Of a DNA stretch of 64,000 bases, positions 17,951-53,964 are shown in pieces. Source of the stretch: Parabacteroides sp. TM07-1AC (GTDB lineage: Bacteria; Bacteroidota; Bacteroidia; Bacteroidales; Tannerellaceae); contig NZ_QUKD01000006.1 in the NCBI RefSeq assembly GCF_003480915.1, positions 186,001 through 250,000 on the forward strand. Direction: 5' to 3'. A program made the translations under genes and the position numbers. Positions within the stretch are counted from its first letter, which is position 1; each line of letters starts with the position of its first letter. The notes under the pieces are model-generated. The model saw nothing but the letters and a program-made list of their open reading frames with translations. It was not told the origin of the DNA and did not search any database.

Positions 17951-18043
17951 CAGTTACTTTTTTTCAAAAAAAGTTAGTTTTCATCTAGGGGTGTTTTTTA
18001 TTTATTTCGTCGTATTTATGAAATCAATAATATTCTGGAGTTC

Positions 18044-22617: not shown

Positions 22618-22629
22618 TAATTATAGAAT

Positions 22630-36162: not shown

Positions 36163-36179
36163 TAAATAATTGAACAATC

Positions 36180-37685
36180 ATGAAAAATATAGTTATATCT
36201 TCGTTTCTAGTTTTGAGTGCGGCTTTATTGGGTTCTTGTAATGACTTTTTGGATACACCTCCTAAGTCTACTCAAACATTGGATCAATATTATCAGAATG
36301 AGGAAGAGGCTCAAGTGGCTGTTAATGGTTTATATTCCAGGTTAGGTACACGTTTTACCTATGCCGGATACGGTGAGGCTCCTGCTTTTATGCTGGAATA
36401 TCCGACTGGTTATTGCTATTATACGGCTGGACAACAATCGTTGATTAATCCAGATTTGGAAAAGCTGAATTATTGGGATCGTAATTATGTGGATTATTGG
36501 TGGCAGTCTTGTTATTACGGAATTGAGGCTTGCAATATGTTTTTGGCAGCAGTTCCTCAACTTCCGGAAAGCAATGCTATCGACCAAATGCTGGGAGAAG
36601 CCCATTTCTTACGTGCTTACTATTATTTTCATCTAGTGCGTATATTTGGTGATGTTCCTTTGAAATTGACTCCAACAGATGCACCGGCAGATGGTATGCT
36701 GATTCCTACATCTATAAAAGAGATATACGAACAGGCAATTTTACCAGATTTGGAAGCTGCCTCTTCGTCTCCTATTTCTTATACACCATCTTCCGGTAGA
36801 GTGTCGATGGAAGCTGTTAATGCCTTATATGCACAAGTCTATTTGACAATGGCTGGAAGTCCGTTGAATGAAACCGATAAATATCAATTGGCAGCTCAAA
36901 AAGCGGAACTGGTTGTAAATTCTTCGCATCTGTCTTTGCTTCAATCGGATACAAATATGAATTGGTTTGAAAAGTTCAGAAGAAAAGAGTTTGACAATAC
37001 GGGTGAGTATATTTTTATGGCTAATTACGGAGAATCTCCTGCCCCAAGACAGCATTACTCTCAATTCTTTGTTCCGGCTGCGGCTGTGAAACTAACAGGT
37101 TTTGTCGGATTCGGTTCGATGATGCCAACTCCGGATTTTATCGATTCATTTGAAGAGGGTGATTTGCGTGCAGAAGAAAAAGGATTCTTTTTTACCTCTT
37201 ATAATAGCTGGGATAATAGTGGTACACTTAATTTTGAACCGGCTGTCTATAAATTTTTCGAACCGACATTAGTGGGACAGGGTGGTTATTGCGGAAAAAG
37301 CCTCCCTCTGATTCGTTATGCAGAAATGCTATTGACTTATGCAGAAGCAACAGCACGCTCTGGTGCGATTACGGATAAAGCGATTGATGCGGTCAATCAG
37401 ATTCGTTCTCGTGCAGGGTTGGAGCCTTTATCGACTGCTGTTACAAGCAATAAAGAAGCCTTTATTGATGCTGTAATGACAGAACGCGTACATGAACTCT
37501 GTTTCGAAAATGTCACTTTCTTTGATATGATTCGTACACAGAAAGCATATAATACGAAAACGAAGAGTTGGGTAAATCTGGAAGGATTCGTAGAACCTTC
37601 AGGGGCTGTATTCAAAACGGCAGAACATACTTATTTCCCGGTTCCATTGAGAGAAGTTCAAATTAATCCGGATTTAAGGAAATAG
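36180..37685 (+). CDS. SusD/RagB-family glycan-binding lipoprotein
   Basis: The 501-residue protein has a lipoprotein signal with lipobox LGSC. It is followed by DFLDTPPKSTQTLDQYYQNEEEAQVAVNGLYS-type residues, TPR-like helices (GEAHFLRAYYYFHLVRIFGDVPL) and the C-terminal LIRYAEMLLTYAEATARSG, TERVHELCFENVTFFDMIR and YFPVPLREVQIN blocks. All are standard SusD features. It pairs with the SusC encoded at 33010 and captures the glycan substrate of locus 2 at the cell surface. Confidence 0.94.
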   Translation: MKNIVISSFLVLSAALLGSCNDFLDTPPKSTQTLDQYYQNEEEAQVAVNGLYSRLGTRFTYAGYGEAPAFMLEYPTGYCYYTAGQQSLINPDLEKLNYWDRNYVDYWWQSCYYGIEACNMFLAAVPQLPESNAIDQMLGEAHFLRAYYYFHLVRIFGDVPLKLTPTDAPADGMLIPTSIKEIYEQAILPDLEAASSSPISYTPSSGRVSMEAVNALYAQVYLTMAGSPLNETDKYQLAAQKAELVVNSSHLSLLQSDTNMNWFEKFRRKEFDNTGEYIFMANYGESPAPRQHYSQFFVPAAAVKLTGFVGFGSMMPTPDFIDSFEEGDLRAEEKGFFFTSYNSWDNSGTLNFEPAVYKFFEPTLVGQGGYCGKSLPLIRYAEMLLTYAEATARSGAITDKAIDAVNQIRSRAGLEPLSTAVTSNKEAFIDAVMTERVHELCFENVTFFDMIRTQKAYNTKTKSWVNLEGFVEPSGAVFKTAEHTYFPVPLREVQINPDLRK

Positions 37686-40200: not shown

Positions 40201-41316
40201 ATGACACCAAGAGAAAGAATGTTTGCTTTATTACAAGGCAAGCAGCTAGATAAAGTGCCTTGGTTTGGCGATTTGGATTATTGGGCTAATTCATTAATAA
40301 AGAGAGGCCTTAAGCCAAATGATTTTATTACTACCGATGCCTATCTGGATTGGCATCGTTCATTAGGAGTTGGCTATTATCTTCAAGGACATTTTCCGTT
40401 TAAAGAGATATATCATGATTGTGAGGTTTCTTCGTGGACGGAAGGCAATTGCAGGTATCGTAAGGTGGTGACACCTTATGGCGAATTGAGGGAGTGCTGG
40501 GAATATTGTGATGAAACTTTTTCGGAAGCACCGGTCGAATATCTGTTGAAGTCGGAAGAGGATATACCGGCTATGATTTATCTGTACGATCATCTGAGTT
40601 ATGAACCGGATTATGTCTATGCTCTGCAAAGGAAACAGCAAGTGGGAGACCAAGGAGCCCTGTTATGCTATCTGCCGAAAAGTCCTTTTATGCATTTGGT
40701 TGCACTGGAGGCTGGGATCGTAACGGTAACGATGTTGGCTTATTCGGTTCCCGAGCAGTTTGAGGCTTTGCTGAAAAGCATGAAACGTGCTTTTGATCAG
40801 GCTGCACAAATATCAGTAGACAGTCCTGCGGAATTATTGATGATCCCGGAAAATCTTTCTTCCGAGATGGTAGGGGGAACATTTTTTGAAATGTATATGA
40901 AAGAATATCAGACAGAATGGACTACCAAGATCCGAGAAGCAGGTAAATATTCATTTATTCACATGGATGGTACGTTGCAAGGACTGCTGAAGCAGGAGTC
41001 TTTGGTCGGATTTTCCGTTTTGGAGGCACTTACTCCTTATCCGGTAGGGGATATGTCTATTGAAGAAATGATTCCTTTATTGGAGGATTCCAAAAGTATT
41101 TTTTGGGGAGGTATTCCCGGAGTTTATTTTACGGCTCATATCTCTGACGAAGAGTTTGATCGTCATGTTATAGCGGTACTTGAAATAATGCGTTCTATCC
41201 CTAGATTTGCTTTGGGCGTGGCAGACCAGGTTCCACCGGATGGTTTGGAATATAGGGTGAAGAGGGTGGGTGAATTAGTCGAGAAGTATGGAGCTTACTG
41301 TATTGCTGACCTTTGA
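40201..41316 (+). CDS. UroD/MtaA-superfamily protein lacking the zinc cysteines
   Basis: The 371-residue cytoplasmic protein starts with the family N-terminus MTPRERMFALLQGKQLDKVPW. Its overall TIM-barrel pattern (LLMIPENLSSEMVGG, EMIPLLEDSKSIFWGGIPG, ALGVADQVPPDGLEYRVKRV) is that of corrinoid methyltransferase relatives of uroporphyrinogen decarboxylase. At the zinc site it reads IHMDGT instead of His-x-Cys-Gly, and the later SSGC is replaced by GVADQ. It therefore cannot bind zinc like MtaA and is a candidate substrate-specific (methyl-donor) methyltransferase or a non-methyltransferase relative. It is not heme-pathway HemE: the RRPP/MRQAGR-type N-terminus is missing. It sits between two GH38-like genes. 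Confidence 0.72.
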   Translation: MTPRERMFALLQGKQLDKVPWFGDLDYWANSLIKRGLKPNDFITTDAYLDWHRSLGVGYYLQGHFPFKEIYHDCEVSSWTEGNCRYRKVVTPYGELRECWEYCDETFSEAPVEYLLKSEEDIPAMIYLYDHLSYEPDYVYALQRKQQVGDQGALLCYLPKSPFMHLVALEAGIVTVTMLAYSVPEQFEALLKSMKRAFDQAAQISVDSPAELLMIPENLSSEMVGGTFFEMYMKEYQTEWTTKIREAGKYSFIHMDGTLQGLLKQESLVGFSVLEALTPYPVGDMSIEEMIPLLEDSKSIFWGGIPGVYFTAHISDEEFDRHVIAVLEIMRSIPRFALGVADQVPPDGLEYRVKRVGELVEKYGAYCIADL

Positions 41317-41442: not shown

Positions 41443-44043
41443 ATGAAATATTCATTGCTAATAGCATTCTGTGTCGTCTCATTTTGTACGACTGCACAAA
41501 GTAATTATCTGAAAGAAGGGCATGTGAATTTTGCTTTATCCAGCCATCAGGATATGGCCTGGATGGATGTTCCGGATAAATGTACGGAATTTCGTATAGA
41601 GAAGCTTTTAATGCCTAGTTTGCGCATGTTGGAAAAAGATAGTTCTTATTGTTTTACAATGGAATATGCTTTGACTTTGGAAGAGTTTTTAAACAAATAT
41701 CCGGAACGTAAAGATGAATTAATGCAGCTGACTGCTAAAAAGCGTTTGGACTGGGGAGCTACGTTTAATCAACCATATGAAGGTATGTTGTCCGGAGAAT
41801 CATTAATTCGTGAAACTTATTTAGGAAAACGTTGGTTACAGAAACAGTTCCCCGGATGTGAATTTGTTACGGCTTTTAATCCGGATGTGCCCGGACGTTC
41901 TTTACAGACCTCACAGATTCATGCAAAAGCGGGTATCAAATATGGTATAATCTCTCGTTTCGAACCCGGAATTTATCAGTGGTTTTCCCCGGATGGTAGT
42001 AGTATCCTTTGTAAATCAAATGGTATCTATTGTGATTACGCAAGAACGCTGGCAGGGAAAAAAGAAAAAGAAGAGAAGAAAGAGTATATACGCTCGATCG
42101 TTCATTTTTGGGATCCATATTATAAGGAAAATAAAATGCCATCTGAATTGTTTTTCCTACACACGGATGACAATGAAGAACCTTATGATTATCAGCAAAT
42201 ATTTAAAGAATTATCTGCAGAGAAGGATATGCCGGAGTTTGGATATACAACCATTTCAACGGCTATGGATAAATTAGTCAGCAAGAAGTCTAAACCTACC
42301 CGTTTGGAAGGTGAATGGCCTGATTTATGGCTTTATATACATAATCCGACACATCATGAGGCAGTTTCCATGATGAGAGATGCACAGAGGAATTTGGTCA
42401 ATGTTGAGAAATTCGGGGCAGTTAGAGGTTTGTTGACAGGTTCTTTTGCATCATACCCGCAGGACAAACTGAATGAGGCATGGAAATGTGCCATTTATCC
42501 GGATCATGGCTGGGGTGGAAACGGAGGTTATATTACCGATGAGATTTATAAAGAAAAGTTCCGTCAGTCTCAAGCGTCTGCAAATGAAATGTTGGAAGAT
42601 GTATTGGGTGAGATTGGTGGTATGATCGAACATAAACAAGAAGGTTTACCAATCGTTGTATTTAATCCGGAAAGCTGGCTTCGTAATGATATTGTGATTA
42701 CTAAAGTAAACGTTTATGGTTTAGGTCGGGGGCATTTTGTCTTAACAGACGATAAAGGTCAGCATATTCCATTCCAATATTTACCCATAAAGGGGCAAAC
42801 AAAAGATGGCGATATACAGATTGCATTTCAGGCAGATTCTATACCATCCATAGGCTATAGATCCTATTATTTGAAACATGTAAAAGATGAAATTTTTGAA
42901 GATGCTGTAACAGCTTCTAATAAAATAGATATTGATAATCCTTATTATCGTATTTCATTTGCTGCAGGAGGTATAAAAAGTATTTTTGACAAACGATTGA
43001 ATCGCGAATTACTGCGTACGGATAAATTCCTGGGAGGAGAAGTCTTCTGTACCCGATCAGTAGGTAATGGCGCTGGTGAATTTAAAGAAATTCAGCCTAT
43101 CACCATGGAAGGATTTGAAAAGAGTTCGGATTATTCTCCGTCCTGGAGTATTATTGAAAGTGGAAGGGTGAGAGAGGTTAGAGAATGTCGTTCGAAATTC
43201 AAGCATGCGACTGTCATTCAACGAATCATTGCATACCAAAATTTCCCTAAAATTGATATAGAGATTGACTTGGAAGGATTTACCGGAGAAGCCTACCAGG
43301 AGTTCCGGATGACTATGCCATTGAATCAGTCATCGTCATTAATCAGTTATGAAGTTCCGATGGGGGTTGTAGAAATAGGAAAGAACGATCTATCTATTTC
43401 TGCAGGACATGCAGGTGGATTACATTATACTACCCCACTAAATGAAACACCACTTCGTGAATGCCAAAATTGGTTTGCCTCTTCCGATGATTTGTCAAAC
43501 GTTATGCTCTCATCTAGTGTTGGCGTATTCGGATATAAGGATGCTACATCCAATCCTGTTGATTATCCGGTTTTACAACCTGTTTTGTTGGCATCCCGTA
43601 AGAGCTGCCATTGGAAAGGAAATTGGTATCTTCAGCAGGGAAACCATTCGTATCGTTTCTCCTTGCATTCGTCTGATGGTGACTGGAAAAAAACTCATCA
43701 GTTAGGTACACAATCTGCTCAACCTCTATTAACTGCAGTGGGGGTGAAAAACGGGAATAATAAAATATTGTCACCTTTACAGTCGTTCTTTAGTGTGGAT
43801 AAGAAGAATGTAATGGTCAGTACGATTAAGAAGTGTGAGGATGATGACAATGTGGTTGTTCGATTATTTGATATAGAGGGCATGGATAGCGATGTCTCTT
43901 TGTGGTCTTTCAAGCCTATAAAGAAAAGCTGTCAAACCAATATCATTGAAGAACCTCAGAAACTTATTGATAACAAGGGGGATATCTTACCTGTTAAAAT
44001 CGGACATCATTCGATTGAGACTTATAAATTAGAGTATAAATAA
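41443..44043 (+). CDS. GH38-superfamily alpha-mannosidase-like protein, exported
   Basis: The 866-residue protein has a signal peptide ending near TTAQS. The catalytic pattern is SSHQDMAWMD with metal ligands His35 and Asp37, and FNPDVPGRSLQ with the candidate nucleophile Asp148. The motifs WGATFNQPYEG, WFSPDGS, EGEWPDLWLYIHNPTHHEA and YPDHGWGGNGG recur in the paralogue at 45221. The C-terminal half is the beta-rich GH38 tail (NPYYRISFAAGGIKSIFDK). The two proteins are clearly duplicates, but this one lacks the extra N-terminal beta domain of the 45221 protein. A 126-base gap without recognisable signals separates it from the UroD-like gene. Confidence 0.78.
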   Translation: MKYSLLIAFCVVSFCTTAQSNYLKEGHVNFALSSHQDMAWMDVPDKCTEFRIEKLLMPSLRMLEKDSSYCFTMEYALTLEEFLNKYPERKDELMQLTAKKRLDWGATFNQPYEGMLSGESLIRETYLGKRWLQKQFPGCEFVTAFNPDVPGRSLQTSQIHAKAGIKYGIISRFEPGIYQWFSPDGSSILCKSNGIYCDYARTLAGKKEKEEKKEYIRSIVHFWDPYYKENKMPSELFFLHTDDNEEPYDYQQIFKELSAEKDMPEFGYTTISTAMDKLVSKKSKPTRLEGEWPDLWLYIHNPTHHEAVSMMRDAQRNLVNVEKFGAVRGLLTGSFASYPQDKLNEAWKCAIYPDHGWGGNGGYITDEIYKEKFRQSQASANEMLEDVLGEIGGMIEHKQEGLPIVVFNPESWLRNDIVITKVNVYGLGRGHFVLTDDKGQHIPFQYLPIKGQTKDGDIQIAFQADSIPSIGYRSYYLKHVKDEIFEDAVTASNKIDIDNPYYRISFAAGGIKSIFDKRLNRELLRTDKFLGGEVFCTRSVGNGAGEFKEIQPITMEGFEKSSDYSPSWSIIESGRVREVRECRSKFKHATVIQRIIAYQNFPKIDIEIDLEGFTGEAYQEFRMTMPLNQSSSLISYEVPMGVVEIGKNDLSISAGHAGGLHYTTPLNETPLRECQNWFASSDDLSNVMLSSSVGVFGYKDATSNPVDYPVLQPVLLASRKSCHWKGNWYLQQGNHSYRFSLHSSDGDWKKTHQLGTQSAQPLLTAVGVKNGNNKILSPLQSFFSVDKKNVMVSTIKKCEDDDNVVVRLFDIEGMDSDVSLWSFKPIKKSCQTNIIEEPQKLIDNKGDILPVKIGHHSIETYKLEYK

Positions 44044-44102
44044 TTTAGAGATTCATAAAATATACTAAATCGCTTTACTATAATTCTATTTATAGAGTTG
44101 AT

Positions 44103-44134
44103 TTAGTATATTTGAACCGATTAAATAACTTTGT
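44103..44134 (+). promoter_or_regulatory. lacI-type gene promoter with embedded AACCG operator
   Basis: TTTAG at 44103-44107 and TAACTTTG at 44127-44134 match -33 and -7 elements with 20 bases between 44106 and 44127. The palindrome TTGAACCGATTAAA (44113-44126) fills the spacer and abuts the -7 box, a layout for direct repression and autoregulation. The start codon at 44140 is only 5 bases past the -7 box, so the message may have almost no leader. Confidence 0.65.
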
Positions 44135-44139
44135 AAACA

Positions 44140-45156
44140 ATGAAAGTTTCTCTTAAAGATATTGCTCAGGCACTGAATTTATCAAAAGCTACTATCTCAT
44201 GGATTTTGTCCGGACAGGGTGAGGCCAAAGGTTTTAGTGAAGCGACAATCAAACGTGTAAAAGAATATGCCGATTCGGTTAATTATCGACCGAATCAGGT
44301 GGCTCGTAGCTTATCTTTGGGAACATCTAATACATTGGGGTTGATAATACCGTTCATTGGGGATACATTCTACGCTCAATTGGCTCAAGCTGTTGAAACA
44401 GAGGCAGCACGTAATAACTATGCATTGTTTGTGTGTAGCTCGGAAGGGGATGGAGATAAAGAATATAAATTGATACAGATGTTGAAGTCAAAGCAGGTTG
44501 ATGGCATTATTGTTGCTCCGACTAAAGTTTCCAGAAAAGGGATTGACCTTTTGACTAAAGATTCTTTACCATTTGTGTTGGTGGACCGTTATTATCCGAA
44601 TGTTCCGACTAATTATGTCATTGTTAACAATAGTCAGAGTTGTTATGACCTTGTTTACCATATAGGTAAAAAAGGAGCCAAGAATATAGCATTGTTAACT
44701 ACGGATGTTCATCTATATGTGATGAAACAACGTATAGAGGGTTATCGTAAAGCATTGAGAGATTTGAATTTGTCGAATGACTTATCTTTGGAGGTGTTTG
44801 TTGATAGACAAAATTACAAAATGGACATAGTTGACAAACTAGATTATTTGTTCAGTGAACTTCCGAATGTGGATGGCTTTTTCTTTTCTACTCACTATTT
44901 AGCTTTGGAGGCTATTCGCTATTTTATAGAACGGAATATCGATTATAAGACTAAATTCCAAATGGGTTGTTTCCATGAAACTACTTCTTTGGATATTTTG
45001 GCACCTCGAATGAGTATCTCTAGAATGCCTATTCATGAAATGGGCGTAGAGTCGGTTAAGATATTGTTGGAAAATATTCAGGATAAAGAAGCTGATTACA
45101 AGGCTGTTGTTCTTGATAATGAATTGCTTCCTTCCGGATATTCAAAAGATCCATGA
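44140..45156 (+). CDS. LacI-family transcriptional regulator
   Basis: The 338-residue cytoplasmic regulator has a helix-turn-helix at residues 3-24 (VSLKDIAQALNLSKATISWIL). The hinge-helix region YRPNQVARSL follows, then a periplasmic-binding-protein-like sensor domain (LGLIIPFIGDTFYAQLAQAVE, VDGIIVAPTK, PFVLVDRYYP, VILDNELLPSG-type ending). It likely binds a sugar released from the locus 2 glycan. Its own promoter and those at 29814, 30045 and 45176 contain a shared palindrome with a central CG, typical for LacI proteins, which points to a local regulon including the B12 operon. The last bases overlap the regulatory region of the next gene. Confidence 0.9.
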   Translation: MKVSLKDIAQALNLSKATISWILSGQGEAKGFSEATIKRVKEYADSVNYRPNQVARSLSLGTSNTLGLIIPFIGDTFYAQLAQAVETEAARNNYALFVCSSEGDGDKEYKLIQMLKSKQVDGIIVAPTKVSRKGIDLLTKDSLPFVLVDRYYPNVPTNYVIVNNSQSCYDLVYHIGKKGAKNIALLTTDVHLYVMKQRIEGYRKALRDLNLSNDLSLEVFVDRQNYKMDIVDKLDYLFSELPNVDGFFFSTHYLALEAIRYFIERNIDYKTKFQMGCFHETTSLDILAPRMSISRMPIHEMGVESVKILLENIQDKEADYKAVVLDNELLPSGYSKDP

Positions 45157-45163
45157 TCTTTTT

Positions 45164-45197
45164 TTTGGAGAATATTTGAACCGGTTAAGTAGTTGTG
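45164..45197 (+). promoter_or_regulatory. Promoter and operator of the GH38/B12 methyltransfer operon
   Basis: TTTG at 45164-45167 and TAGTTGTG at 45190-45197 (one mismatch to TAnnTTTG) flank the palindrome TTGAACCGGTTAAG (45176-45189). The operator again directly precedes the -7 box. The seven-gene operon begins 24 bases further on. Confidence 0.6.
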
Positions 45198-45220
45198 TTA
45201 ACATATATAATTTATATATC

Positions 45221-48073
45221 ATGAAAGAATTAATTATAACGAGCATGCTATATGTTGCAGTTGGAACTATGGCGCAGACAACAACTGCTGTCATAAATCC
45301 AATAGAGCCCGTACAGTATAAAAATGAGAACGGTAAGTTCCAAATTCTATCTTATATCCAAGAGGACTGTCTATCCCAAACTTCCCTGAAATGTTATGTA
45401 AACGATCAATCTGTTGATCTTGTTAAGACAGAACGAAGTGATAGCGTATTGGTTTGGTTACCAATGATTGGAGGAGAAGAACAGTTGAAGGTCGTCGCTG
45501 GTAAAAAGATTATTTTGGATCAGACGTTTCAAACGTTTATTCCGGCTGATTGGGGCTATTTTAAGAATGGTGTGATCCATATTATTCAATCATCCCATCA
45601 AGATATTGCCTGGATGGATACACCGGAGTACTGCCGAGAAGATCGTATCAATAACATCATTTTGCCTGCTCTTGATATGATGAAGCAGAATAAAGACTTC
45701 ACTTTTGAAATGGAGCAGACTATGTATTTGATGGAGTTTTTGGAAGAACATCCGGAGCGGAAAGATGAATTGATACAATTATATAAAGAGAAAAGATTTA
45801 CGTGGGGAGCCACCTATAACCAACCATACGAAGGTTTATCCAGTGGCGAACAACTGATACGTCAGTCTTATTACGGACGGAAGTGGGTTCATGAAAATAT
45901 GCCGGGGTGCGATGATTTGGTTGCGAATAATATGGATGTACCTGGTCGTACGCTGCAGATGTCTCAAATATTGGCTAAAAGTGGTATTCCTAATTTATTT
46001 GTCAGTAGAATGGCTGAAGGTTTATACGATTGGTATAGTCCGGATGGTTCTAAGGTTTTAACTTTCACTCCTGGGAATTATGGTTGGCCTTCTCTTATTT
46101 GGAAGTTTTTCGATAAAGATGCTGCTACGGCATTTCATAAATTGCACCATCGTACACAATTATGGAGCAATTATTATGAAAAACATCAGATTCCGCCGCA
46201 TTATGCTATTTTAATAAGTTGTGACGCGACTAAACCGGTGGATTTCCAGAATGTAATCGATGAATGGAATAAGATTGCAGAAGAGTCAGAGGTGCCTTTA
46301 CCACGTTTAAAGGCTTCTACGAGTGAAGAGTATTTTGATTTGGTTCGCGGAAAAACAACTCAATTTGAGAAAATATCCGGAGAACGTCCTGATTTATGGC
46401 TCTATATTCATGGTCCGGCCCATTATGAGGCTACAAAATATAAGCGTGAAGCTGGTGTATTATTACCGGCAGCAGAGTCATTTACTACTTTCTCAAAACT
46501 ACAAACAGGAGACTTACAAAAGTATCCGCGAAAGTCTTTTGACCGTGCCTGGATGGCTTCTATATATCCGGATCATGGCTTAGGTGGGAAAAATGGAGAA
46601 ATTACAGATTCTATTTTCGAAGATAGTTTAAGAGTAGGTTATACATTGGGTAAGGAACTGTTGTCTGAGGCGTTGAAACAACTCACCGAACAGGTAAAGA
46701 CAAAAGAAAATAATTATGTTGTATTTAACGATTTGACATGGGAAAGAAATGGGCTGGTAACTGTTGAAGTCCCCAACGAAAAGATCTCAGTCAAAGATGA
46801 ACAAGGAAATACTGTCAATACACAGATTAAGAAAGATAAGGATGGAAAACAATATGTGACATTTGAAGCACAGGATATACCATCTATGGGATATCGCAGT
46901 TATTCGATTCAGCGTGGAAAGACTCCGAAAGCATCCAATTCGGTAAATCATTCTTCCAATCAAATAGAAAATGACTACTATAAGGCAGTATTAGGAAATG
47001 GCGGTATCGTTTATTTGTACGACAAACAATTGGGCAAAGAACTCATTCATACTTCTAAATTTGCATGTGGGGATGTCATCGAGTTAGGATATACAGGAAA
47101 CGGAGCCGGTGAGTTTACCCGTATCACGGATGTAGTTCCCGGAGATATCACTTCGTTAAGCTCTTTCGTTTCAAAATGGGAAGTTGAAGAATCGGGGGCA
47201 CTGTATACACGTTTCAAAAGCTTACAACCGACAAAACATGCAACTATAGTACAAAATATAACATTCTATCATACCAGTAAGAAAATAGACTTTGGCATTA
47301 CCTTACAGGATTTTGACGGTACGCATAACCGGCAATATCGTATTGCATTTCCTGCCAATATGATGGGAGAACGTACTATAAACTATGAGATACCAATGGC
47401 TGTAGCCGAAGTCGGGAAAGATGAATTGAAGAAGCAACCCGGTGGTTGGGCATGGGGAGGAACCTATGTACATCATCCGGAAGATTCCCACCCTCGTGAA
47501 ATACAGAATTTTATATCAGCGAATGGTAATGGCTTTGGATTGACTATGTCATCCTGTGTTGCTGTAGCAGATTGGATCGATCCTTCCCGTGAACAAGCTG
47601 TTTATCCGGTTTTGCAGGGAATTCTTCTCTCATCACACAAAAGTTGTCATGGTGAAGGTAACTGGTATCATCAAAAAGGAACCCACAATTTCCATTTCTC
47701 TATAACTTCTCATCCGGAAGGATGGAAAAACGGATATAATTCTGCCATCGCGAATAATCATCCTTTATTCGTACAACAGAAAAACAATAAAGAGGGAAAA
47801 CTTGAAGGAAGCAATAGCTTTTTCAAACTTTCAGATCCTTTTACTGCACTTTCTTTAATTAAAAAGGCAGATAATGATAACAACCTGATTATCCGTTTGA
47901 CAGAAATGGAAGGGAAGGATAAAGAGGTTATGATAACATTACCAGTATCCGTTAAAAAAGTGATCCGAACCAATTTGATTGAAGAGGAGCAAAAGGTACT
48001 TCCGGTATCCGGTAATCAGTTTGCTTTGCCTTTAGGTCATCATGCTATTGAAACATATAAATTAGTACTATAA
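45221..48073 (+). CDS. GH38-superfamily alpha-mannosidase-like protein, exported
   Basis: The start is taken at the ATG at 45221, giving MKELIITSML and a signal ending near GTMAQ. An upstream in-frame ATG at 45107 lies inside the lacI gene and upstream of the promoter. The 950-residue protein has an N-terminal beta domain of about 110 residues, then SSHQDIAWMD with metal ligands His126 and Asp128, and NNMDVPGRTLQ with candidate nucleophile Asp239. It shares many motifs with the 41443 protein (WGATYNQPYEG, SGERPDLWLYIHGPAHYEA, YPDHGLGG). It is the first gene of the operon that continues with the sugar transporter and the methyltransfer genes. That is the main reason to link the methyl chemistry to a glycoside. 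Confidence 0.8.
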   Translation: MKELIITSMLYVAVGTMAQTTTAVINPIEPVQYKNENGKFQILSYIQEDCLSQTSLKCYVNDQSVDLVKTERSDSVLVWLPMIGGEEQLKVVAGKKIILDQTFQTFIPADWGYFKNGVIHIIQSSHQDIAWMDTPEYCREDRINNIILPALDMMKQNKDFTFEMEQTMYLMEFLEEHPERKDELIQLYKEKRFTWGATYNQPYEGLSSGEQLIRQSYYGRKWVHENMPGCDDLVANNMDVPGRTLQMSQILAKSGIPNLFVSRMAEGLYDWYSPDGSKVLTFTPGNYGWPSLIWKFFDKDAATAFHKLHHRTQLWSNYYEKHQIPPHYAILISCDATKPVDFQNVIDEWNKIAEESEVPLPRLKASTSEEYFDLVRGKTTQFEKISGERPDLWLYIHGPAHYEATKYKREAGVLLPAAESFTTFSKLQTGDLQKYPRKSFDRAWMASIYPDHGLGGKNGEITDSIFEDSLRVGYTLGKELLSEALKQLTEQVKTKENNYVVFNDLTWERNGLVTVEVPNEKISVKDEQGNTVNTQIKKDKDGKQYVTFEAQDIPSMGYRSYSIQRGKTPKASNSVNHSSNQIENDYYKAVLGNGGIVYLYDKQLGKELIHTSKFACGDVIELGYTGNGAGEFTRITDVVPGDITSLSSFVSKWEVEESGALYTRFKSLQPTKHATIVQNITFYHTSKKIDFGITLQDFDGTHNRQYRIAFPANMMGERTINYEIPMAVAEVGKDELKKQPGGWAWGGTYVHHPEDSHPREIQNFISANGNGFGLTMSSCVAVADWIDPSREQAVYPVLQGILLSSHKSCHGEGNWYHQKGTHNFHFSITSHPEGWKNGYNSAIANNHPLFVQQKNNKEGKLEGSNSFFKLSDPFTALSLIKKADNDNNLIIRLTEMEGKDKEVMITLPVSVKKVIRTNLIEEEQKVLPVSGNQFALPLGHHAIETYKLVL

Positions 48074-48079
48074 TAAAAA

Positions 48080-49240
48080 ATGAACACAATCATCTTTAAA
48101 CTAATACCCGTCTTGTTTGCCTTCTTTATAATGGGTTTTGTAGATATTGTTGGTGTTTCCACAAGCTATGTAAAACAAGATTTCGAATTGAACGATACGT
48201 TGGCAAACCTATTGCCTATGTTGGTTTTTATTTGGTTTGCAGTATGTTCTTTACCGACCAGTTTACTAATGGGGCGAATCGGAAGGAAAAAAACAGTATT
48301 ATGCAGTTTAAGTATAACAAGTATATCGTTGTTGATTCCATTGGTTTATTATTCTTTTGCTACGGTTCTTTTAGCTTTTACTTTATTGGGAATTGGAAAT
48401 ACGGTATTGCAGGTCTCTCTGAATCCTTTATTGTTGAATGTTGTAGCTAAAGACAAGTTTACCAGCACATTGACACTGGGGCAATTTATCAAAGCAATAT
48501 CGTCTACTTTGGGACCGGTTATTGCCAGCGCAATGGTTGGTATTTGGGGAAATTGGCATTTGATTTTTGTAGTATATGCTATTACATCTTGTTTGTCTTG
48601 TTTGTGGCTGGCTATGACTCCGATAACAGAAATGCCAAATACGCAAGCTGGTCAGAATATTGGACATATTTTCTCTTTATTCCACAACTCAAAGTTGATA
48701 ATTGCTTTCTCTGTGATTCTATTGATAGTCGGTTTTGAGATAGGGTTGATGACAGCAGTTCCTAAATATTTATCAGAACAATGTGGTCTTCCCATAGAAA
48801 AGGGAAGTCTAGGTTGCAGTTTGTATTTTGCTGCTCGTACATTGGGAACATTTTTAGGGACATTCATCTTGGCTCGGTATTCTGCCGGTAAATTTTTGAC
48901 AATAAACATGATATTGGCAATTGTTGTATTTGCAGTTTTCATGTTGGTTTCCGATACAACAATTTTATTGATTGCTTTATTCCTGATAGGCTTAAGTTGT
49001 GCAAATGTTTTTCCTATCATATTCTCACAAGCTATCCAATCGGAACCGGATAAAGCAAATGAGATATCTGCTTTGATGATAATGGGTGTGGCAGGAGGTG
49101 CAATCTTACCGGTTATTATGGGATTGGTTGCAGATAACAGTAGCCAGTTAGTCAGTCTGTTGATTCCTTTCGGTGCCTTAATTTACATCCTGATCGTATC
49201 TATACAACAGAATAAAACACATAAAAATATTCAAATATGA
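48080..49240 (+). CDS. FucP-like major facilitator sugar transporter
   Basis: The 386-residue inner-membrane protein has about 12 hydrophobic helices. The MFS loop motif GRIGRKKTVL follows helix 2. The general look is that of the FucP/glucose-galactose group (LLGIGNTVLQVSLNPLLLNVV, ANVFPIIFSQAIQ, ALMIMGVAGGAILPVIMGLVAD). It probably brings a released monosaccharide, or an O-methylated one, from periplasm to cytoplasm by proton symport. It starts 6 bases after the GH38-like gene, and its last codon overlaps the start of the next gene (ATGA), so all are one transcript. Confidence 0.88.
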   Translation: MNTIIFKLIPVLFAFFIMGFVDIVGVSTSYVKQDFELNDTLANLLPMLVFIWFAVCSLPTSLLMGRIGRKKTVLCSLSITSISLLIPLVYYSFATVLLAFTLLGIGNTVLQVSLNPLLLNVVAKDKFTSTLTLGQFIKAISSTLGPVIASAMVGIWGNWHLIFVVYAITSCLSCLWLAMTPITEMPNTQAGQNIGHIFSLFHNSKLIIAFSVILLIVGFEIGLMTAVPKYLSEQCGLPIEKGSLGCSLYFAARTLGTFLGTFILARYSAGKFLTINMILAIVVFAVFMLVSDTTILLIALFLIGLSCANVFPIIFSQAIQSEPDKANEISALMIMGVAGGAILPVIMGLVADNSSQLVSLLIPFGALIYILIVSIQQNKTHKNIQI

Positions 49241-50304
49241 AAAGTATGAATTCATTGGAACGCTGCATGGCCGTTCTAAACGGGGAAACCCCTGACAGAT
49301 TACCGATTGTCCCTCAATGCTTCATGCTAGCTGTTGAGACAGCTGGAATGAAAATTGGTGATGTAAATAAGAATGGCCGCAAGATGGCACAAGCCCACAT
49401 CATTTCGCAAGAAAAGTATGGTTATGATGGATGCGTTATCGATTTTGATGATGCCACCATTGCAGAGGCTGTTGGGGCCAAGGTTATTTTTCGAGAGGAT
49501 GAACCGGCTATTGTTGATGAAGAACAGCCTGTATTGAAAGACTTACGGGATGTCTATGATATGCCGATCCCTGATCCGGCGAGTTCCGGTCGTCTGAACG
49601 AGTGGTTGGAAGCGACACGTACGTTGTCTGAAGCTATTGGGGATCATGTATTTATCATGGGACGTGCCGATCAGGGTCCTTTCAGTATTGCTTGCCTGTT
49701 AAGAGGAACGACTCAATTCATGATGGATTTATTGACTGAAGACAAACAACTTATAGATGATGTATTGGAGTATTGCCGGAAAATCAGTGCCGTATTTGCC
49801 AAAGCACAAAAAGACGCAGGAGCTCATGTAACATCTATCGGGGATGCTTTTGCCGGTCCAAATCTGATTTCCCCGGACATGTACCGCCAATTTGCCTTGA
49901 TCCCGGAACAGAAACTGGCTAAAGAGGTGCAGGATTACGGTATTCCTTTCTCTATCCATATTTGTGGTAATACTAATGGAATTATTCAAGATATGGGAAC
50001 GACAGGAGCCAAGATACTGGAGGTTGACTGGATGCTTGATATCAAAGAAGCCAGAAGATTAGTACCGGAAGATACTGTCTTAATGGGAAATATCGATCCC
50101 AGTAGTCCGCTCGTTATTGGGACACCTTCCGACGTAGATGCCGCTGTCAAAAGATTGATAGAAGCAACAAAGGGCAAACGTCATATTATTAGTTCCGGAT
50201 GTGCAATGGGACGTAATACGCCTCCTGAAAACTTCAAGGCTTTTATTGAAGCAGCACATCGTTATGGGTCTTATGAAGAAATTATGAAATTACAAAATCT
50301 ATAA
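49237..50304 (+). CDS. UroD/MtaA-family corrinoid methyltransferase with intact zinc motif (first copy)
   Basis: The 355-residue cytoplasmic TIM-barrel protein belongs to the uroporphyrinogen decarboxylase superfamily, methyltransferase branch. It begins SLERCMAVLNGETPDRLPIV. The zinc-site residues of MtaA/MtbA-like enzymes are present: His241 and Cys243 in IHICGN and Cys322 in SSGCAMGRNTPPEN. In that family zinc activates a thiol or binds the methyl donor while methyl moves to or from a corrinoid protein, here probably the product of the next gene. It also has GRADQGPFSIACLLRG in the substrate pocket region. Whether it is the demethylating (MT1) or acceptor (MT2) enzyme is undecided. The start overlaps the transporter stop by 4 bases. 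Confidence 0.85.
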   Translation: MKSMNSLERCMAVLNGETPDRLPIVPQCFMLAVETAGMKIGDVNKNGRKMAQAHIISQEKYGYDGCVIDFDDATIAEAVGAKVIFREDEPAIVDEEQPVLKDLRDVYDMPIPDPASSGRLNEWLEATRTLSEAIGDHVFIMGRADQGPFSIACLLRGTTQFMMDLLTEDKQLIDDVLEYCRKISAVFAKAQKDAGAHVTSIGDAFAGPNLISPDMYRQFALIPEQKLAKEVQDYGIPFSIHICGNTNGIIQDMGTTGAKILEVDWMLDIKEARRLVPEDTVLMGNIDPSSPLVIGTPSDVDAAVKRLIEATKGKRHIISSGCAMGRNTPPENFKAFIEAAHRYGSYEEIMKLQNL

Positions 50305-50310
50305 AATATC

Positions 50311-50949
50311 ATGGCAGATTTAAATAAATTATTTGATTCAATTGTTGCCGGAAAAATGGAACCGGCTGTCGAGGTAACAGAGCAAATCATCGAAGAAAAG
50401 TTAGACATACAGTCTATTATCAATGATTATATGATCAAGGCAATGGAAGAGATAGGCGATCGTTTCCAGAACCATAAGGCTTATGTTCCTGAATTATTGA
50501 TGGCTGCCCGCGCCATGAAAGGTTCTTTGGATCTTTTGAAGCCACACATGAAGGATGAAAGCATACAAACTGTCGGAAAGATCGTGATTGGAACTGTATT
50601 TGGAGACTTGCATGACATCGGAAAAAATTTGGTTGCTTCCATGTTTGAAGGTTGTGGCTTTGAGGTAATCAATTTGGGAGTTAATATACCTGACAGCAAA
50701 TTTATAGAAACAGTCAAACAAGAGAAACCGGATATTTTATGCTTGTCTGCTTTGTTGACAACAACGATGACCAATATGAAAGGAGTAATTGAAGCATTGG
50801 ATAAAGCCAGACTTCGGGACCAGGTGAAAGTGATGGTCGGAGGAGCACCTGTCAATGAAACATTTGCCAAAGAAATTGGAGCAGACGGATATAGTAGTAA
50901 TGCCAATGCCGCTGTAATCAAAGCAAAAGAATTATTAGCCATCGCATAA
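50311..50949 (+). CDS. Corrinoid (cobalamin-binding) methyl carrier protein
   Basis: The 212-residue protein has the two-domain layout of MtaC/MtbC/MtmC. A helical cap occupies residues 1-85 (LFDSIVAGKMEPAVEVTEQI, MEEIGDRFQNHKAYVPELLMAARAM). A Rossmann B12-binding domain occupies residues 88-212. The cobalt-ligand motif DxHxxG is Asp99-His101-Gly104 in GTVFGDLHDIGKNLV. The nucleotide-tail pocket residues follow in LSALLTTTM and VMVGGAPVNETFAKEIGADGYSSNA. It carries the methyl group on cobalt between the methyltransferases encoded on either side. No signal peptide, so it acts in the cytoplasm. It is placed 6 bases after the 49237 gene and 12 before the 50962 gene. Confidence 0.93.
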   Translation: MADLNKLFDSIVAGKMEPAVEVTEQIIEEKLDIQSIINDYMIKAMEEIGDRFQNHKAYVPELLMAARAMKGSLDLLKPHMKDESIQTVGKIVIGTVFGDLHDIGKNLVASMFEGCGFEVINLGVNIPDSKFIETVKQEKPDILCLSALLTTTMTNMKGVIEALDKARLRDQVKVMVGGAPVNETFAKEIGADGYSSNANAAVIKAKELLAIA

Positions 50950-50961
50950 AAATATAATCTT

Positions 50962-51972
50962 ATGAAAATAGACATGAAAAACTGGATAGCATCCGTTATT
51001 GCTTCTCCACAACGGGTGGCTGTCCCTATAATGACTCATTCCGGTATTGAATTGCTAGGACATACTGTTAATGATGCAGTTACAAACGGTGAAGTACATT
51101 ATCAGGCGATTAAAGTTTTATCAGAGAAATACCCCTCAGAAGCATCTTCCGTTATAATGGATCTGACAGTTGAGGCTGAGGCTTTTGGTGCTGAAATCTA
51201 TTTTTCGGAAAATGAAGTTCCGAGTGTTGTAGGGCGCTTGGTGTCAACTCCGGAAGAAATAGAGAAGTTGGAAATTCCTTCATTAGATACAGCTCGTCTG
51301 CCGGAATATATCAAGGCCAATCGGCTAGTGGCAGCAGAAGTAACCAAGCCCGTCTTGGCTGGATGTATCGGACCCTATTCTTTAGCCGGAAGACTATATG
51401 ATATGTCTGAGATTATGATGGCTATGTATATTGATCCGGATAGTATTAAGTTGTTGTTATCTAAATGTACGGAGTTTATAACAAAATATTGCCAGGCTTT
51501 AAAAGAGGCTGGGGCAAACGGGGTGTTAATTGCAGAACCGGCAGCAGGCTTATTGTCGAATGATGCATGTATGGAGTTCTCTTCCTTGTATGTAAAACAG
51601 ATCGTTGATAAAGTTCAGGATGATTTCTTCTCCGTCATTTTGCATAACTGTGGAAATACGGGACAATGTACTGAAGCAATGGTTTATACAGGTGCTGCAG
51701 GCTATCATTTTGGAAATGGAATCGATATGATCTCTGCTTTGAATGATTGTCCGAAAGATGCATTAGTTATGGGTAATATTGATCCTGTTTCAGTTTTGAA
51801 AATGGCATCTTCTCAGCAGGTGTATGAGCAGACTATGCAATTGTTGACAGACACGGCTGCATACCCGAATTTTGTATTATCATCGGGATGTGATACTCCG
51901 CCTGAGATCCCTTTTGCGAATATAGAGATGTTTTACCAGGCATTAAATGACTACAACTCAACGTTAAAATGA
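50962..51972 (+). CDS. UroD/MtaA-family corrinoid methyltransferase with intact zinc motif (second copy)
   Basis: The 336-residue cytoplasmic protein is only distantly similar to its neighbour at 49237 but has the same fold plan and metal site: His228 and Cys230 in LHNCGNTG and Cys310 in SSGCDTPPEIP. Other family marks are VPIMTHSGIELLGHTVNDAV near the N-terminus, MDLTVEAEAFGAEIYFSENEVP and GCIGPYSLAGRLYDMSEIM. With two zinc methyltransferases around one corrinoid protein, the set contains both halves of a relay: methyl donor to cobalt and cobalt to acceptor. The acceptor may be a thiol such as homocysteine, or folate. The last codon overlaps the cupin gene start by 4 bases. Confidence 0.85.
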   Translation: MKIDMKNWIASVIASPQRVAVPIMTHSGIELLGHTVNDAVTNGEVHYQAIKVLSEKYPSEASSVIMDLTVEAEAFGAEIYFSENEVPSVVGRLVSTPEEIEKLEIPSLDTARLPEYIKANRLVAAEVTKPVLAGCIGPYSLAGRLYDMSEIMMAMYIDPDSIKLLLSKCTEFITKYCQALKEAGANGVLIAEPAAGLLSNDACMEFSSLYVKQIVDKVQDDFFSVILHNCGNTGQCTEAMVYTGAAGYHFGNGIDMISALNDCPKDALVMGNIDPVSVLKMASSQQVYEQTMQLLTDTAAYPNFVLSSGCDTPPEIPFANIEMFYQALNDYNSTLK

Positions 51973-52376
51973 TAGAAACATATAACTATGAAGGTAAAGG
52001 TTACCATCCTTTCCTCATCAGAGAGGGATGGCAGGTCGCCCAACTTAATTATGTAGAGAAGCATGGTCTGGATGATATTGACCAGATAGAAGTTCATAAC
52101 CAGTCAGATGAAGCATTCATTTTGTTTAAAGGGAAAGCGGTATTGGTTGAAGTGCAGATTGAACAAGAGGATATTCATTTCAATTGCCAATACATGAAAC
52201 CGGGAGTGACCTATAATATTCCAGCTGGCACCTGGCATGAAATAGCCATGGACCGGGATGCAGAAATTATTATTGTAGAACGGGCGAATACCCATAAGCA
52301 AGATTGTTCATATTCCAAACTGACAGAATCTCAGAAACAAATCTTATATTCTAAAATCAAGGATCAATTATCATAG
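51969..52376 (+). CDS. Small cupin-fold protein
   Basis: The 135-residue protein has a single cupin barrel: HNQSDEAFILFKGKAVLVEV in the first motif and PAGTWHEIAMDRDAEIIIVE in the second. The His and Glu residues could hold a metal or a sugar. Its tight placement inside the B12 operon (4-base overlap with 50962, 4-base gap to 52381) says it serves the same pathway. A role in handling or isomerising the sugar, or in binding an intermediate, is inference; the family alone does not define a reaction. Confidence 0.72.
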   Translation: MIETYNYEGKGYHPFLIREGWQVAQLNYVEKHGLDDIDQIEVHNQSDEAFILFKGKAVLVEVQIEQEDIHFNCQYMKPGVTYNIPAGTWHEIAMDRDAEIIIVERANTHKQDCSYSKLTESQKQILYSKIKDQLS

Positions 52377-52380
52377 AAGT

Positions 52381-53964
52381 ATGAAGAAAGTGTATGTACT
52401 ATGGGGCTTTTTAGGAAGCGGAAAGACAACGCTGATCAATCATCTTTTACTTACCCATTTAAAAGATAAAAATGTTGTAATCATTGAAAATGAATCCGGA
52501 AAAGAATCTATAGATGGGATAGAGTTGCAGAACCGACATTATTCCGTTGTGGATTTAAAATCCGGATGTGTTTGTTGTACGCTTCGTTTAAAGCTGGCAG
52601 AGGTATTGGAAGAAATCAAGCAGTCACTCAAGCCGGACTGGGTATTAATGGAACCTTCCGGCTTGGCATCGCTGGAAGATTTGTTGCAGATTCCCAATCT
52701 CTGTATCGATGGTGCTATTACTTTGCTGGATGTAAAGATGTATGATTTTCTGATGAAACTAAATCCCGATTTTTATCGTCGTCAGTTTTACTTATCTTCT
52801 GTTTTGTTTCTGACGAAGACGGAATCGATAAGTTCAGAAGAAGTCAAACAAATTGTTGATAAGCTATTATCCATTCAGCCTCAGCTGCAAATTATTGAAG
52901 ATTATCGTTTGCTGGATGAAGCTGAATGGATAACCATATGGGAGAAAAGTAGTCTTCAGAAAAGAGTATTCTTGCCATTTACATCAAAGGCTGCACCTCC
53001 TCTATTTTCTACAGAAACTATCGTATTGGAGTCTCCGATAGACAGGACTTTTTTCAAGACGGAGTTTTCCAGGATGAATACCCTGTTTGGCAATCAGATT
53101 GTTCGTACAAAAGGTTTACTTCAACAGCAGGATGGAACATGGTCCAGATTTGATGTTACCGGAAGTGATTATTCGGAAAAACCAATCCCCGATTTAGAAA
53201 GAGAAGAGAAAAGTACTATTTCTGTCTGGTGGAAAGATAAAGAAGGTCTCAGTCCTTTAGGCTGGATTTCCCCCTTTCTAAATGCAGAAGAACAACGCTG
53301 CTCCATCGATGATCTGATAATCTCAGATGAGGAGTTGTTTCTATACATGGGATTCAAAGGAAGCACGCCTGATGCATATACCTATGAGATAATACAAACT
53401 TTAAAAAAAGAGGCTTTGGAAATTTGTCAGCCTCGCTTAGGATATCGCTTTCTAACCGGAAGCAAACTGGATAAACAACATTTGGTTGTAGGCAATTATA
53501 TTTTCAAGCCTGATTATACTATTACAAAGTATCTTCAGGATGCTGATATATATGCAATACTGGTTGCTTCTGTCGGTGCAGAGCTAGATGCCTGGATTCA
53601 AGAAAAACGTTTGGCAAATGATATAATGGAAGCTTTTATTGCCGATGCATTGGGTTCACTTATTGTTGAAGCAATCGTTTCCTATGGTCTGTCATCGTTA
53701 ACCGAAAAAATGAAATTCTACCAATTGAATACCAGTAACTCTTATAGTCCGGGCTATTGTGGCTGGAACGTACGTGAACAACAACTTCTTTTCTCATTGT
53801 TACCCCACGCTTTTTGCGGCATTTCACTGACAGATTCCAGTCTGATGCTTCCTATCAAATCTGTTAGTTCCTTAATAGGAATAGGTAGAAATATTGAAAG
53901 AAAGCCTTATGGATGCTCAATCTGTCAGAGAAAAGATTGTTTTAAGAAGAAAGAAGTTTTATAG
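52381..53964 (+). CDS. CobW-type GTPase fused to a MetH-type B12 reactivation domain
   Basis: The 527-residue cytoplasmic protein has two recognisable parts. Residues 1-about 285 are a CobW/COG0523 GTPase: Walker A GFLGSGKT (9-16), metal-binding SGCVCCTLR with Cys63, Cys65 and Cys66, EPSGLA, and a CobW C-terminal domain (IVRTKGLLQ, TWSRFDVTG). Residues about 315-527 match the vitamin-B12-dependent methionine synthase activation domain: LYMGFKGSTPDAYTYE, IADALGSLIVEAIV, YSPGYCGWNVREQQLLF, GISLTDSSLMLPIKSVSS and a terminal Cys cluster (GCSICQRKDCF). In MetH this domain binds AdoMet and helps remethylate inactive cob(II)alamin. Here it would reactivate the corrinoid protein encoded at 50311, with GTP hydrolysis as a gate. 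It is the last gene of the operon, and the fusion is unusual. Confidence 0.85.
   Translation: MKKVYVLWGFLGSGKTTLINHLLLTHLKDKNVVIIENESGKESIDGIELQNRHYSVVDLKSGCVCCTLRLKLAEVLEEIKQSLKPDWVLMEPSGLASLEDLLQIPNLCIDGAITLLDVKMYDFLMKLNPDFYRRQFYLSSVLFLTKTESISSEEVKQIVDKLLSIQPQLQIIEDYRLLDEAEWITIWEKSSLQKRVFLPFTSKAAPPLFSTETIVLESPIDRTFFKTEFSRMNTLFGNQIVRTKGLLQQQDGTWSRFDVTGSDYSEKPIPDLEREEKSTISVWWKDKEGLSPLGWISPFLNAEEQRCSIDDLIISDEELFLYMGFKGSTPDAYTYEIIQTLKKEALEICQPRLGYRFLTGSKLDKQHLVVGNYIFKPDYTITKYLQDADIYAILVASVGAELDAWIQEKRLANDIMEAFIADALGSLIVEAIVSYGLSSLTEKMKFYQLNTSNSYSPGYCGWNVREQQLLFSLLPHAFCGISLTDSSLMLPIKSVSSLIGIGRNIERKPYGCSICQRKDCFKKKEVL

Follow-up and report, generated by a model that had tools for sequence, protein, structure and literature searches.

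How could a bacterium remove the methyl groups of a methylated sugar without oxygen? To our knowledge, the removal of sugar methyl ethers is known only via oxygen-dependent P450 systems. The question is raised by an operon of seven genes, situated at positions 45221-53964 (plus strand) of a stretch of 64,000 nucleotides from Parabacteroides sp. TM07-1AC (contig NZ_QUKD01000006.1, positions 186,001 to 250,000), hereafter the window, in which predicted corrinoid-dependent methyl-transfer proteins accompany an apparently exported mannosidase-family enzyme and a predicted sugar transporter. Judging from sequence and gene context, the corrinoid set would likely demethylate, with no need for oxygen, a methylated mannose-type sugar that has entered the cell—an answer given here about even chances of being right—and the operon gives concrete enzymes to test for such a demethylation. 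If true, a B12-dependent route would tie the competition for vitamin B12 in the gut to the use of glycans and could supply methyl groups to common human symbionts.

The methyl-transfer operon

The operon comprises the following genes:

45221-48073, plus strand: GH38 enzyme d with a signal-like N-terminus (Pfam GH38N 1.2e-26 and GH38C2)
48080-49240, plus strand: sugar transporter of the major facilitator superfamily (MFS), predicted as GluP/FucP-like (Pfam MFS_1 2e-30)
49237-50304, plus strand: UroD1, an MtaA-like UroD-family protein, predicted substrate-specific methyltransferase I (Pfam URO-D 5.7e-71)
50311-50949, plus strand: corrinoid carrier protein (Pfam B12-binding_2 and B12-binding)
50962-51972, plus strand: UroD2, a UroD-family protein, predicted common methyltransferase II with a thiol acceptor (Pfam URO-D 8.3e-57)
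51969-52376, plus strand: small cupin-like protein (without Pfam match)
52381-53964, plus strand: CobW/G3E GTPase fused to a MetH-type activation domain, predicted to reactivate corrinoid and to act as metal chaperone (Pfam cobW 7.1e-32, Met_synt_B12 1.1e-6)

An earlier, sequence-only reading had described a tightly packed operon with genes for a GH38-like enzyme, a sugar transporter, two UroD proteins, a corrinoid protein and a B12-reactivase fusion, and so it proved: all seven frames are open at these coordinates, the intergenic gaps amount to 6, -4, 6, 12, -4 and 4 bases, and the Pfam assignments agree. The zinc motifs noticed in both UroD proteins are present as His241-x-Cys243...Cys322 in UroD1 and His228-x-Cys230...Cys310 in UroD2, and so is the DxHxxG motif of the corrinoid protein (DLHDIG at residue 99), the NCBIfam matches of which to MtgC/MtbC-type models lie below the cut-off. 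The corrinoid gene is read in the same direction as both UroD genes, as it is in a type 1 mlp cluster. Two of the earlier labels hold in part: FucP-like is a fair description of the transporter, but both its NCBIfam scores (gluP 71.8 bits, fucP 47.9 bits) are below the cut-off, and the small protein looks like a cupin by its sequence but has only a weak NCBIfam match. The export of GH38 enzyme d was called from its N-terminus by eye.

A predicted mannosidase locus and the recurrence of the cassette in other genomes

The operon had been placed within a locus for a mannose-type glycan, and the sequence 5' of it is a polysaccharide utilisation locus with two SusC/SusD pairs, a GH92 gene and three further GH38 genes. 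The features concerned are listed below, L and G numbers designating, here and further on, the loci and genomes compared.

17384-19006, plus strand: ECF sigma factor and FecR anti-sigma genes (Pfam Sigma70_r4_2 4.3e-17, FecR 5e-17)
19171-24123, plus strand: SusC-like/SusD-like pair 1 (Pfam Plug/CarbopepD_reg_2, SusD_RagB)
24261-26249, plus strand: DUF5054 protein (Pfam DUF5054 1.8e-26; the relative in L189 matches GH38N and, weakly, DUF5054)
26410-29574, plus strand: GH92 enzyme of the alpha-mannosidase family (Pfam GH92 1e-142; TIGR01180 439.8 bits, above cut-off)
30063-32945, plus strand: GH38 enzyme a (Pfam GH38N 1.3e-19)
33010-37685, plus strand: SusC-like/SusD-like pair 2 (Pfam TonB_dep_Rec_b-barrel, SusD_RagB)
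37742-40168, plus strand: GH38 enzyme b (Pfam GH38N 5.6e-14)
40201-41316, plus strand: UroD0, a divergent UroD-family protein with O-type ligands, predicted second methyltransferase I (Pfam URO-D 5.7e-6)
41443-44043, plus strand: GH38 enzyme c (Pfam GH38N 4.8e-20)
44140-45156, plus strand: LacI-family protein, predicted regulator of the operon (Pfam LacI and Peripla_BP_1; likewise upstream in L119 and L187)

The LacI gene ends 64 bases upstream of the operon. UroD0 is a third UroD-family gene, lying outside the coordinates of the sequence-only reading and missed by it.

The cassette is not a chance grouping, because it recurs in other genomes: a mannosidase-family gene, the MFS transporter, UroD1, the carrier, UroD2, the cupin-like gene and the activator are found together in L119 (G196), L187 (G419), L001 and L002. 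Among 393 sampled genomes of the order, G196 has the sole close UroD1 (91% identical), the other eight matches being 34-38% identical, and a close UroD1 is present in 3 of the 38 genomes of the genus of G111, the genome whose topoisomerase IV A subunit is 87% identical to that of the window (the next being 76%, among 129 sampled). A contig scan adds, among the matches listed, L001 and L002 (metagenome-assembled genomes of a Bacteroidales bacterium from goat omasum and of Alistipes, respectively), and all findings from that scan are meant in this sense, its rows after about the first 18 being mostly CobW-only relatives. A UroD1 99% identical is listed under a Parabacteroides with 119 contigs, and one 86% identical under P. 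distasonis.

All six other close UroD1 loci found contain an alpha-mannosidase family gene (GH38 in five, GH92 alone in one), whereas GH38 or GH92 is near only one (L124) of the 21 surveyed UroD2 loci without UroD1, these being the 22-genome UroD2 survey minus G196; the one-sided Fisher p of 2.4e-5 overstates independence, as the loci share descent. The UroD2 loci L003, L004, L005 and L208-L210 stood outside that tblastn, and no GH38 or GH92 label was seen among their annotated open reading frames. The sequence-only reading had proposed just such a check of co-occurrence across genomes, and the contrary pattern it had named, in which the B12 genes would usually keep company with quaternary amine or aromatic genes, did not show in that part of the neighbours which was annotated. 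The glycan link is stronger than that reading could know.

Relatives of GH38 enzyme d adjoin UroD1 in L119, L001, L002, L188 and L189/L190, and tblastn finds relatives of the cupin-like gene in five of the six other UroD1 loci, with none found in L188. In L187 the operon is followed, like that of the window, by ilvA and parC; GH92 occupies the GH38 position, and the 14.7-kb contig has no GH38 match. Within L187:1318-9401 the GH92 gene falls into two frames and an interruption breaks the CobW fusion, be these real or assembly errors. In L189/L190 (G406), UroD1 and the cupin-like gene are beside GH38, and the same run holds another carrier, two UroD proteins that are not His-Cys-Cys, and GH95- and GH120-type genes. 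It should be noted that the frames of the relatives come from a home-made composition-based caller, which can pick antisense frames and missed the activator genes of L193 and L194 found by tblastn, and that missing neighbours mean little on the short contigs L199 (3.6 kb), L205 (6.3 kb), L250 and L253, the last two carrying distant UroD1-like genes.

Metal ligands, structure and evolutionary tree of the UroD proteins

The His-Cys-Cys ligands of UroD1 are invariant in 23 sequences. The same set is read in 7 of 7 UroD1 rows, in 14 of 14 UroD2 rows and in two distant UroD1-like proteins, and is absent from all 13 other-type UroD proteins examined in related genomes, which show His-Cys-His, His-Asp-His, His-Cys-Asn, or His-Asp without the third cysteine; two further proteins of other types (both L128) are likewise not His-Cys-Cys. 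Not all of the other-type proteins in this count adjoin a carrier gene, and the count left out L237, L241 and L243 (no matching frame) as well as G406_3724 (a wrong, partial frame). In a preprint (PMC10418091), His-Cys-Cys is the mark of S- and Se-methyltransferases, one or both cysteines being replaced in O-methyltransferases. The rule, being that of a preprint, is an indication rather than a verdict, the more so as some O-demethylases need no zinc (PMC13222342).

By this rule UroD0 would belong with the O-demethylases, the cysteines being replaced in its set His254-x-Asp256...Asp342 (invariant in 34 aligned sequences, at least 98% conserved in 121), whereas UroD1 and UroD2 do not. A sequence search of the PDB with UroD0 and one partner UroD gave nothing useful; UroD0 was placed by structure, its AlphaFold model (pLDDT 86.4) matching best MtaA (4ay7; E 8.1e-11, TM 0.60-0.65). 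A search at E 1e-80 of 198 sampled genomes of the order, among them G196 and none serving as a positive control, gave no UroD0; UroD0 as the sole methyltransferase I was rejected on these grounds. The closest solved relative of UroD1 is again MtaA 4ay7, a methylcobalamin:coenzyme M methyltransferase (E 5.5e-33). With the MtaA/CmuA model the two UroD proteins of the operon score 179.4 and 129.2 bits, below the cut-off of 235.4; a type 1 mlp cluster is defined by two or more MtaA-like proteins, of the Mlp2 and Mlp3 kinds, that exceed 25% identity to a characterised enzyme. A hemE identity was rejected, both proteins scoring far below the hemE cut-off.

In the evolutionary tree, UroD2 forms one clade of 16 rows (support 100/100) that spans loci with different hydrolases, and UroD1 a separate clade of 7 rows (100/99). 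The two clades join each other to the exclusion of the remaining UroD types (99/99), for which the tree carries long-branch warnings. Such clades across varied hydrolase loci suit UroD2 for a common step and UroD1 for a substrate-specific one. In G196, G001 and G002, UroD1 and UroD2 are the sole URO-D members found, in a search that a member as weak as UroD0 (26 bits) could escape; UroD1 would therefore work there without an O-type partner, unless a divergent member like UroD0 was missed.

The CobW-MetH activation fusion

Among the nine proteins encoded at 41443-53964 no Ram/RACE reductive activase was found, a MetH-type activation domain standing in its place. An alignment of 38 fusion proteins shows the key P-loop residues, the CxCC cysteines and the SPGYC segment to be invariant. 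The AlphaFold model (pLDDT 87.0) matches fragments of Thermus MetH, the G3E GTPase YjiA, TM0269 (1j6r, TM 0.84 by target length)—the stand-alone activation domain of Thermotoga methionine synthase, which binds S-adenosylmethionine—and MetH 1msk (TM 0.49 by target length), the assignment of the two halves to these structures resting on Pfam coordinates. With the 1j6r and 1msk matches, Met_synt_B12 above its cut-off and SPGY invariant in all 38 sequences, the activation domain has the MetH-type fold. The two parts are separate neighbouring genes in G001, and in the operon of L001 the activation part alone was found, without an adjacent CobW part, among the matches listed. CobW-type GTPases beside corrinoid methyltransferase genes are on record as COG0523 subfamily 13 (PMC2770081), to which the window protein is likened by gene context and from which it differs in that its CobW part is fused to a MetH-like activation domain. 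We infer that the fusion reactivates the corrinoid and loads metal.

The UroD2-carrier-activator core in other glycan loci

UroD2 is present in 22 of the 393 sampled genomes of the order. In at least six of these 22 loci, with part of the neighbours annotated, the surrounding stretch examined encodes a glycoside hydrolase that Pfam names or that is closely homologous to such an enzyme: GH38 in G196, GH92 and GxGYxYP in G365, GH31 and a rhamnosidase-like enzyme in G025, GH28 with CE2 in G115, GH31 and GH2 in G114, and GH106 and GH29 in G263; it should be pointed out that this count, with no random-gene control and in an order rich in such genes, is suggestive only. The UroD- or X354-type neighbours of the core vary with the carbohydrate-active enzymes (CAZymes), the family X354 accompanying GH31 (L143, L120, L195) and UroD-type proteins accompanying GH106 with GH29 (L197), GH92 with GxGYxYP (L124) or GH28/CE2 (L128). 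In G225 and G306, UroD2 adjoins genes for SecA and a protein of the phosphodiesterase type (identified by Pfam in L191, the L192 genes being of equal lengths), and the carrier and activator are elsewhere, with GH31, GH2 and other hydrolase-type genes (L120, L121). In G217 and G363 it occurs with an activator match and a gene of 924 amino acids, which in L193 is of the fucose-pyrophosphorylase/kinase type and lies with UroD2 (L193:10819-13590) near an M16 peptidase, outside an obvious glycan locus. All 11 genomes tested encode, besides a full-length MetH, one or more carriers and one or more activation-domain proteins that stand alone.

The family X354, with 354 residues, an HLDG motif and no Pfam or NCBIfam match (L143 copy scanned), is encoded at L143:5573-6634, L120:3166-4227 and L195:7145-8206, in each case with GH31 and a symporter-like gene. 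In L005:12445-13896 it is fused to a corrinoid protein, being 63% identical to that of L143 over the shared part, with its start lost at the contig edge; the fusion suggests a transfer of methyl groups from X354 to the carrier. When the profiles of UroD0 and X354 were compared with UroD2 and with each other, the probabilities stayed below 4%; for one partner UroD group the value was 61%. In both L132 (6650-9337) and L128 (11315-13999), two divergent UroD genes are separated from the corrinoid gene by one for a conserved protein of some 895 amino acids, the L132 copy of which is almost without Pfam match.

Somewhat short of even confidence, a modular oxygen-free machine for sugar demethylation may be envisaged in gut Bacteroidales, in which a shared core of UroD2, carrier and MetH-like reactivator would be served by interchangeable methyltransferases (UroD1, UroD0, other UroD types, X354), each in the locus of a differently methylated glycan, with B12 gating the access to methylated sugars. 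This suggested wider pattern, with exchangeable partners around one B12 core, is the more interesting outcome.

Proposed mechanism and its alternatives

Genes, motifs and context are the observations from which, by family and position, each step of the following scheme is derived. The GH38 and GH92 enzymes would free a methylated mannose-type sugar and the MFS transporter would import it; UroD1 would move the methyl group to cob(I)alamin on the corrinoid protein, UroD0 possibly doing likewise for another methyl position, and UroD2 would pass it to a thiol such as homocysteine. Corrinoid that has become oxidised would be reactivated by the MetH-like domain of the fusion, S-adenosylmethionine and an electron donor being the probable cosubstrates, and the CobW part may load zinc. 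In other glycan loci, other UroD-type proteins would take the first slot beside the core, and our guess is that two or three such enzymes per locus (window, L132, L189) suit sugars methylated at several positions. Food contains methylated mannose glycans, such as the N-glycans of Chlorella with 3-O-methyl and 3,6-di-O-methyl mannose (PMC6344472); mollusc N-glycans are a further possible source of methylated sugars (PMC8699351), and the O antigen of Aquifex has a 3-O-methyl-mannose cap (PMC9445017). Folate as the methyl acceptor was rejected, no tetrahydrofolate (H4folate) methyltransferase of the MtrH type having been found among the frames scanned, which are part of those in a window ending 10 kb 3' of the operon; for a type 1 mlp cluster, such an enzyme has to be absent over 20 kb. 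Demethylation of methylamine, betaine or aromatics was rejected too, as no such partner gene was recognised in the operon or among the annotated neighbours.

Among the known systems, the methoxy-aromatic O-demethylases Mtv, Odm and Mto (PMC8630106, PMC13222342) likewise have a UroD-superfamily methyltransferase I, a corrinoid protein, an activator and an MFS transporter in an operon, but their acceptor enzyme is of the pterin/folate type (MtoA, MtrH-related) and their activase is ATP-dependent, neither of which was found in the window operon, the context of which is glycan digestion. With the P450 demethylation of 6-O-methyl-galactose (Reisky 2018, cited in PMC12316285) the operon would share its purpose—freeing a sugar from its methyl ether within a polysaccharide locus—whereas P450 needs oxygen and the B12 route would work anaerobically. 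Methyl-galactose demethylation in anaerobic bacteria is described as not elucidated, P450 systems serving aerobes (PMC12316285, 2025), and neither corrinoid systems within polysaccharide loci nor anaerobic sugar demethylation by corrinoid enzymes were found to be reported in the titles and abstract openings of the open-licence PMC literature.

The sugar-demethylation reading of the operon is well placed. From the earlier proposal of O-methyl-sugar demethylation, the tie between corrinoid methyl transfer and glycan use has stood, but O-methyl specificity has not fared equally well, both UroD proteins of the operon being His-Cys-Cys and the O-type ligands being found in UroD0 and the other-type proteins. 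Several further points weigh against demethylation of a sugar ether. The His-Cys-Cys set of UroD1 is the one assigned to S/Se-methyltransferases (PMC10418091), UroD0 apparently does not belong to the conserved cassette, and the profile comparison found no link between X354 and UroD. In L188:4088-14260 (G405), UroD1 is flanked by GH38 on one side and GH38/GH92 on the other but by no corrinoid gene, the carriers of G405 being in L207 and L208. GH38 or GH92 is near only 4 of the 10 distant UroD1-like loci, some of them on short contigs (p 0.027 against the UroD2 loci), and two (G234, G366) of the eight sampled genomes with distant UroD1-like proteins show, as B12 proteins, MetH or one of 300 amino acids, and no carrier that stands alone; a third, G028, has candidate carrier frames of 293-295 amino acids. 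The ligand set, the carrier-less L188, the loci of the distant relatives and the genomes without a stand-alone carrier together would also be compatible with a substrate containing sulfur or with a different role. GH38 is likewise found near distant UroD1-like genes (36-40% identical) in L244:3131-10489 and L248:5709-10423, with no recognised carrier gene nearby.

That UroD1 acts on a methyl substrate of sulfur or selenium (methylthio-type) is considered unlikely, even if it would agree with the His-Cys-Cys set throughout UroD1 and UroD2, with their grouping apart from the other UroD types, and with type 1 mlp clusters (Kountz and Balskus, PMC10418091), where two His-Cys-Cys MtaA-like UroD proteins and one corrinoid protein occur, as here, with no H4folate methyltransferase found in the operon. 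The defining activator of those clusters, however, is a RamA-type activase, not found among the operon proteins, where the CobW-MetH-activation fusion serves instead; moreover, the window operon has its own MFS transporter and no recognised sulfur or selenium gene, stands in a SusC/SusD mannosidase locus, and keeps GH38/GH92 company in every close UroD1 locus. We know of no common dietary methylthio-mannosides; a methylthio-xylose cap occurs on mycobacterial lipoarabinomannan. Quite improbable is a general methyl-salvage or methionine-supply module, with a donor that is not a sugar, landed in glycan loci by operon shuffling: UroD2 does lie away from recognised CAZymes in L191 and L192 and, with an activator match, in L193 and L194, but UroD1 stays with mannosidase-family genes in its close loci, each genome tested already has a full-length MetH, and different CAZyme sets come with different UroD-type proteins beside the core. 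The loci in which UroD1 (L188) or its distant relatives (L244, L245, L248) lack a recognised carrier gene nearby would suit a different, sugar-directed activity of the UroD fold that needs none of the B12 genes and is not that of a corrinoid methyltransferase; this is considered very improbable, given that in the window and in L119, L187, L001 and L002 the UroD1 gene forms a single run with those for UroD2, the carrier and the activator, that its closest solved relative uses methylcobalamin, and that its zinc ligands are intact.

Flanking genes

On the 3' side of the operon, a low-molecular-weight phosphatase-type gene and a gene for a pyridoxal-phosphate (PLP) enzyme with an ACT domain (minus strand) are followed by a topoisomerase IV A-type gene (plus strand). 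GFO/IDH/MocA oxidoreductases recur beside UroD-family or X354 genes, namely at 15801-17237 of the window, L120:2027-3088 and L244:15436-16800, and are possibly tied to the sugar chemistry of these loci.

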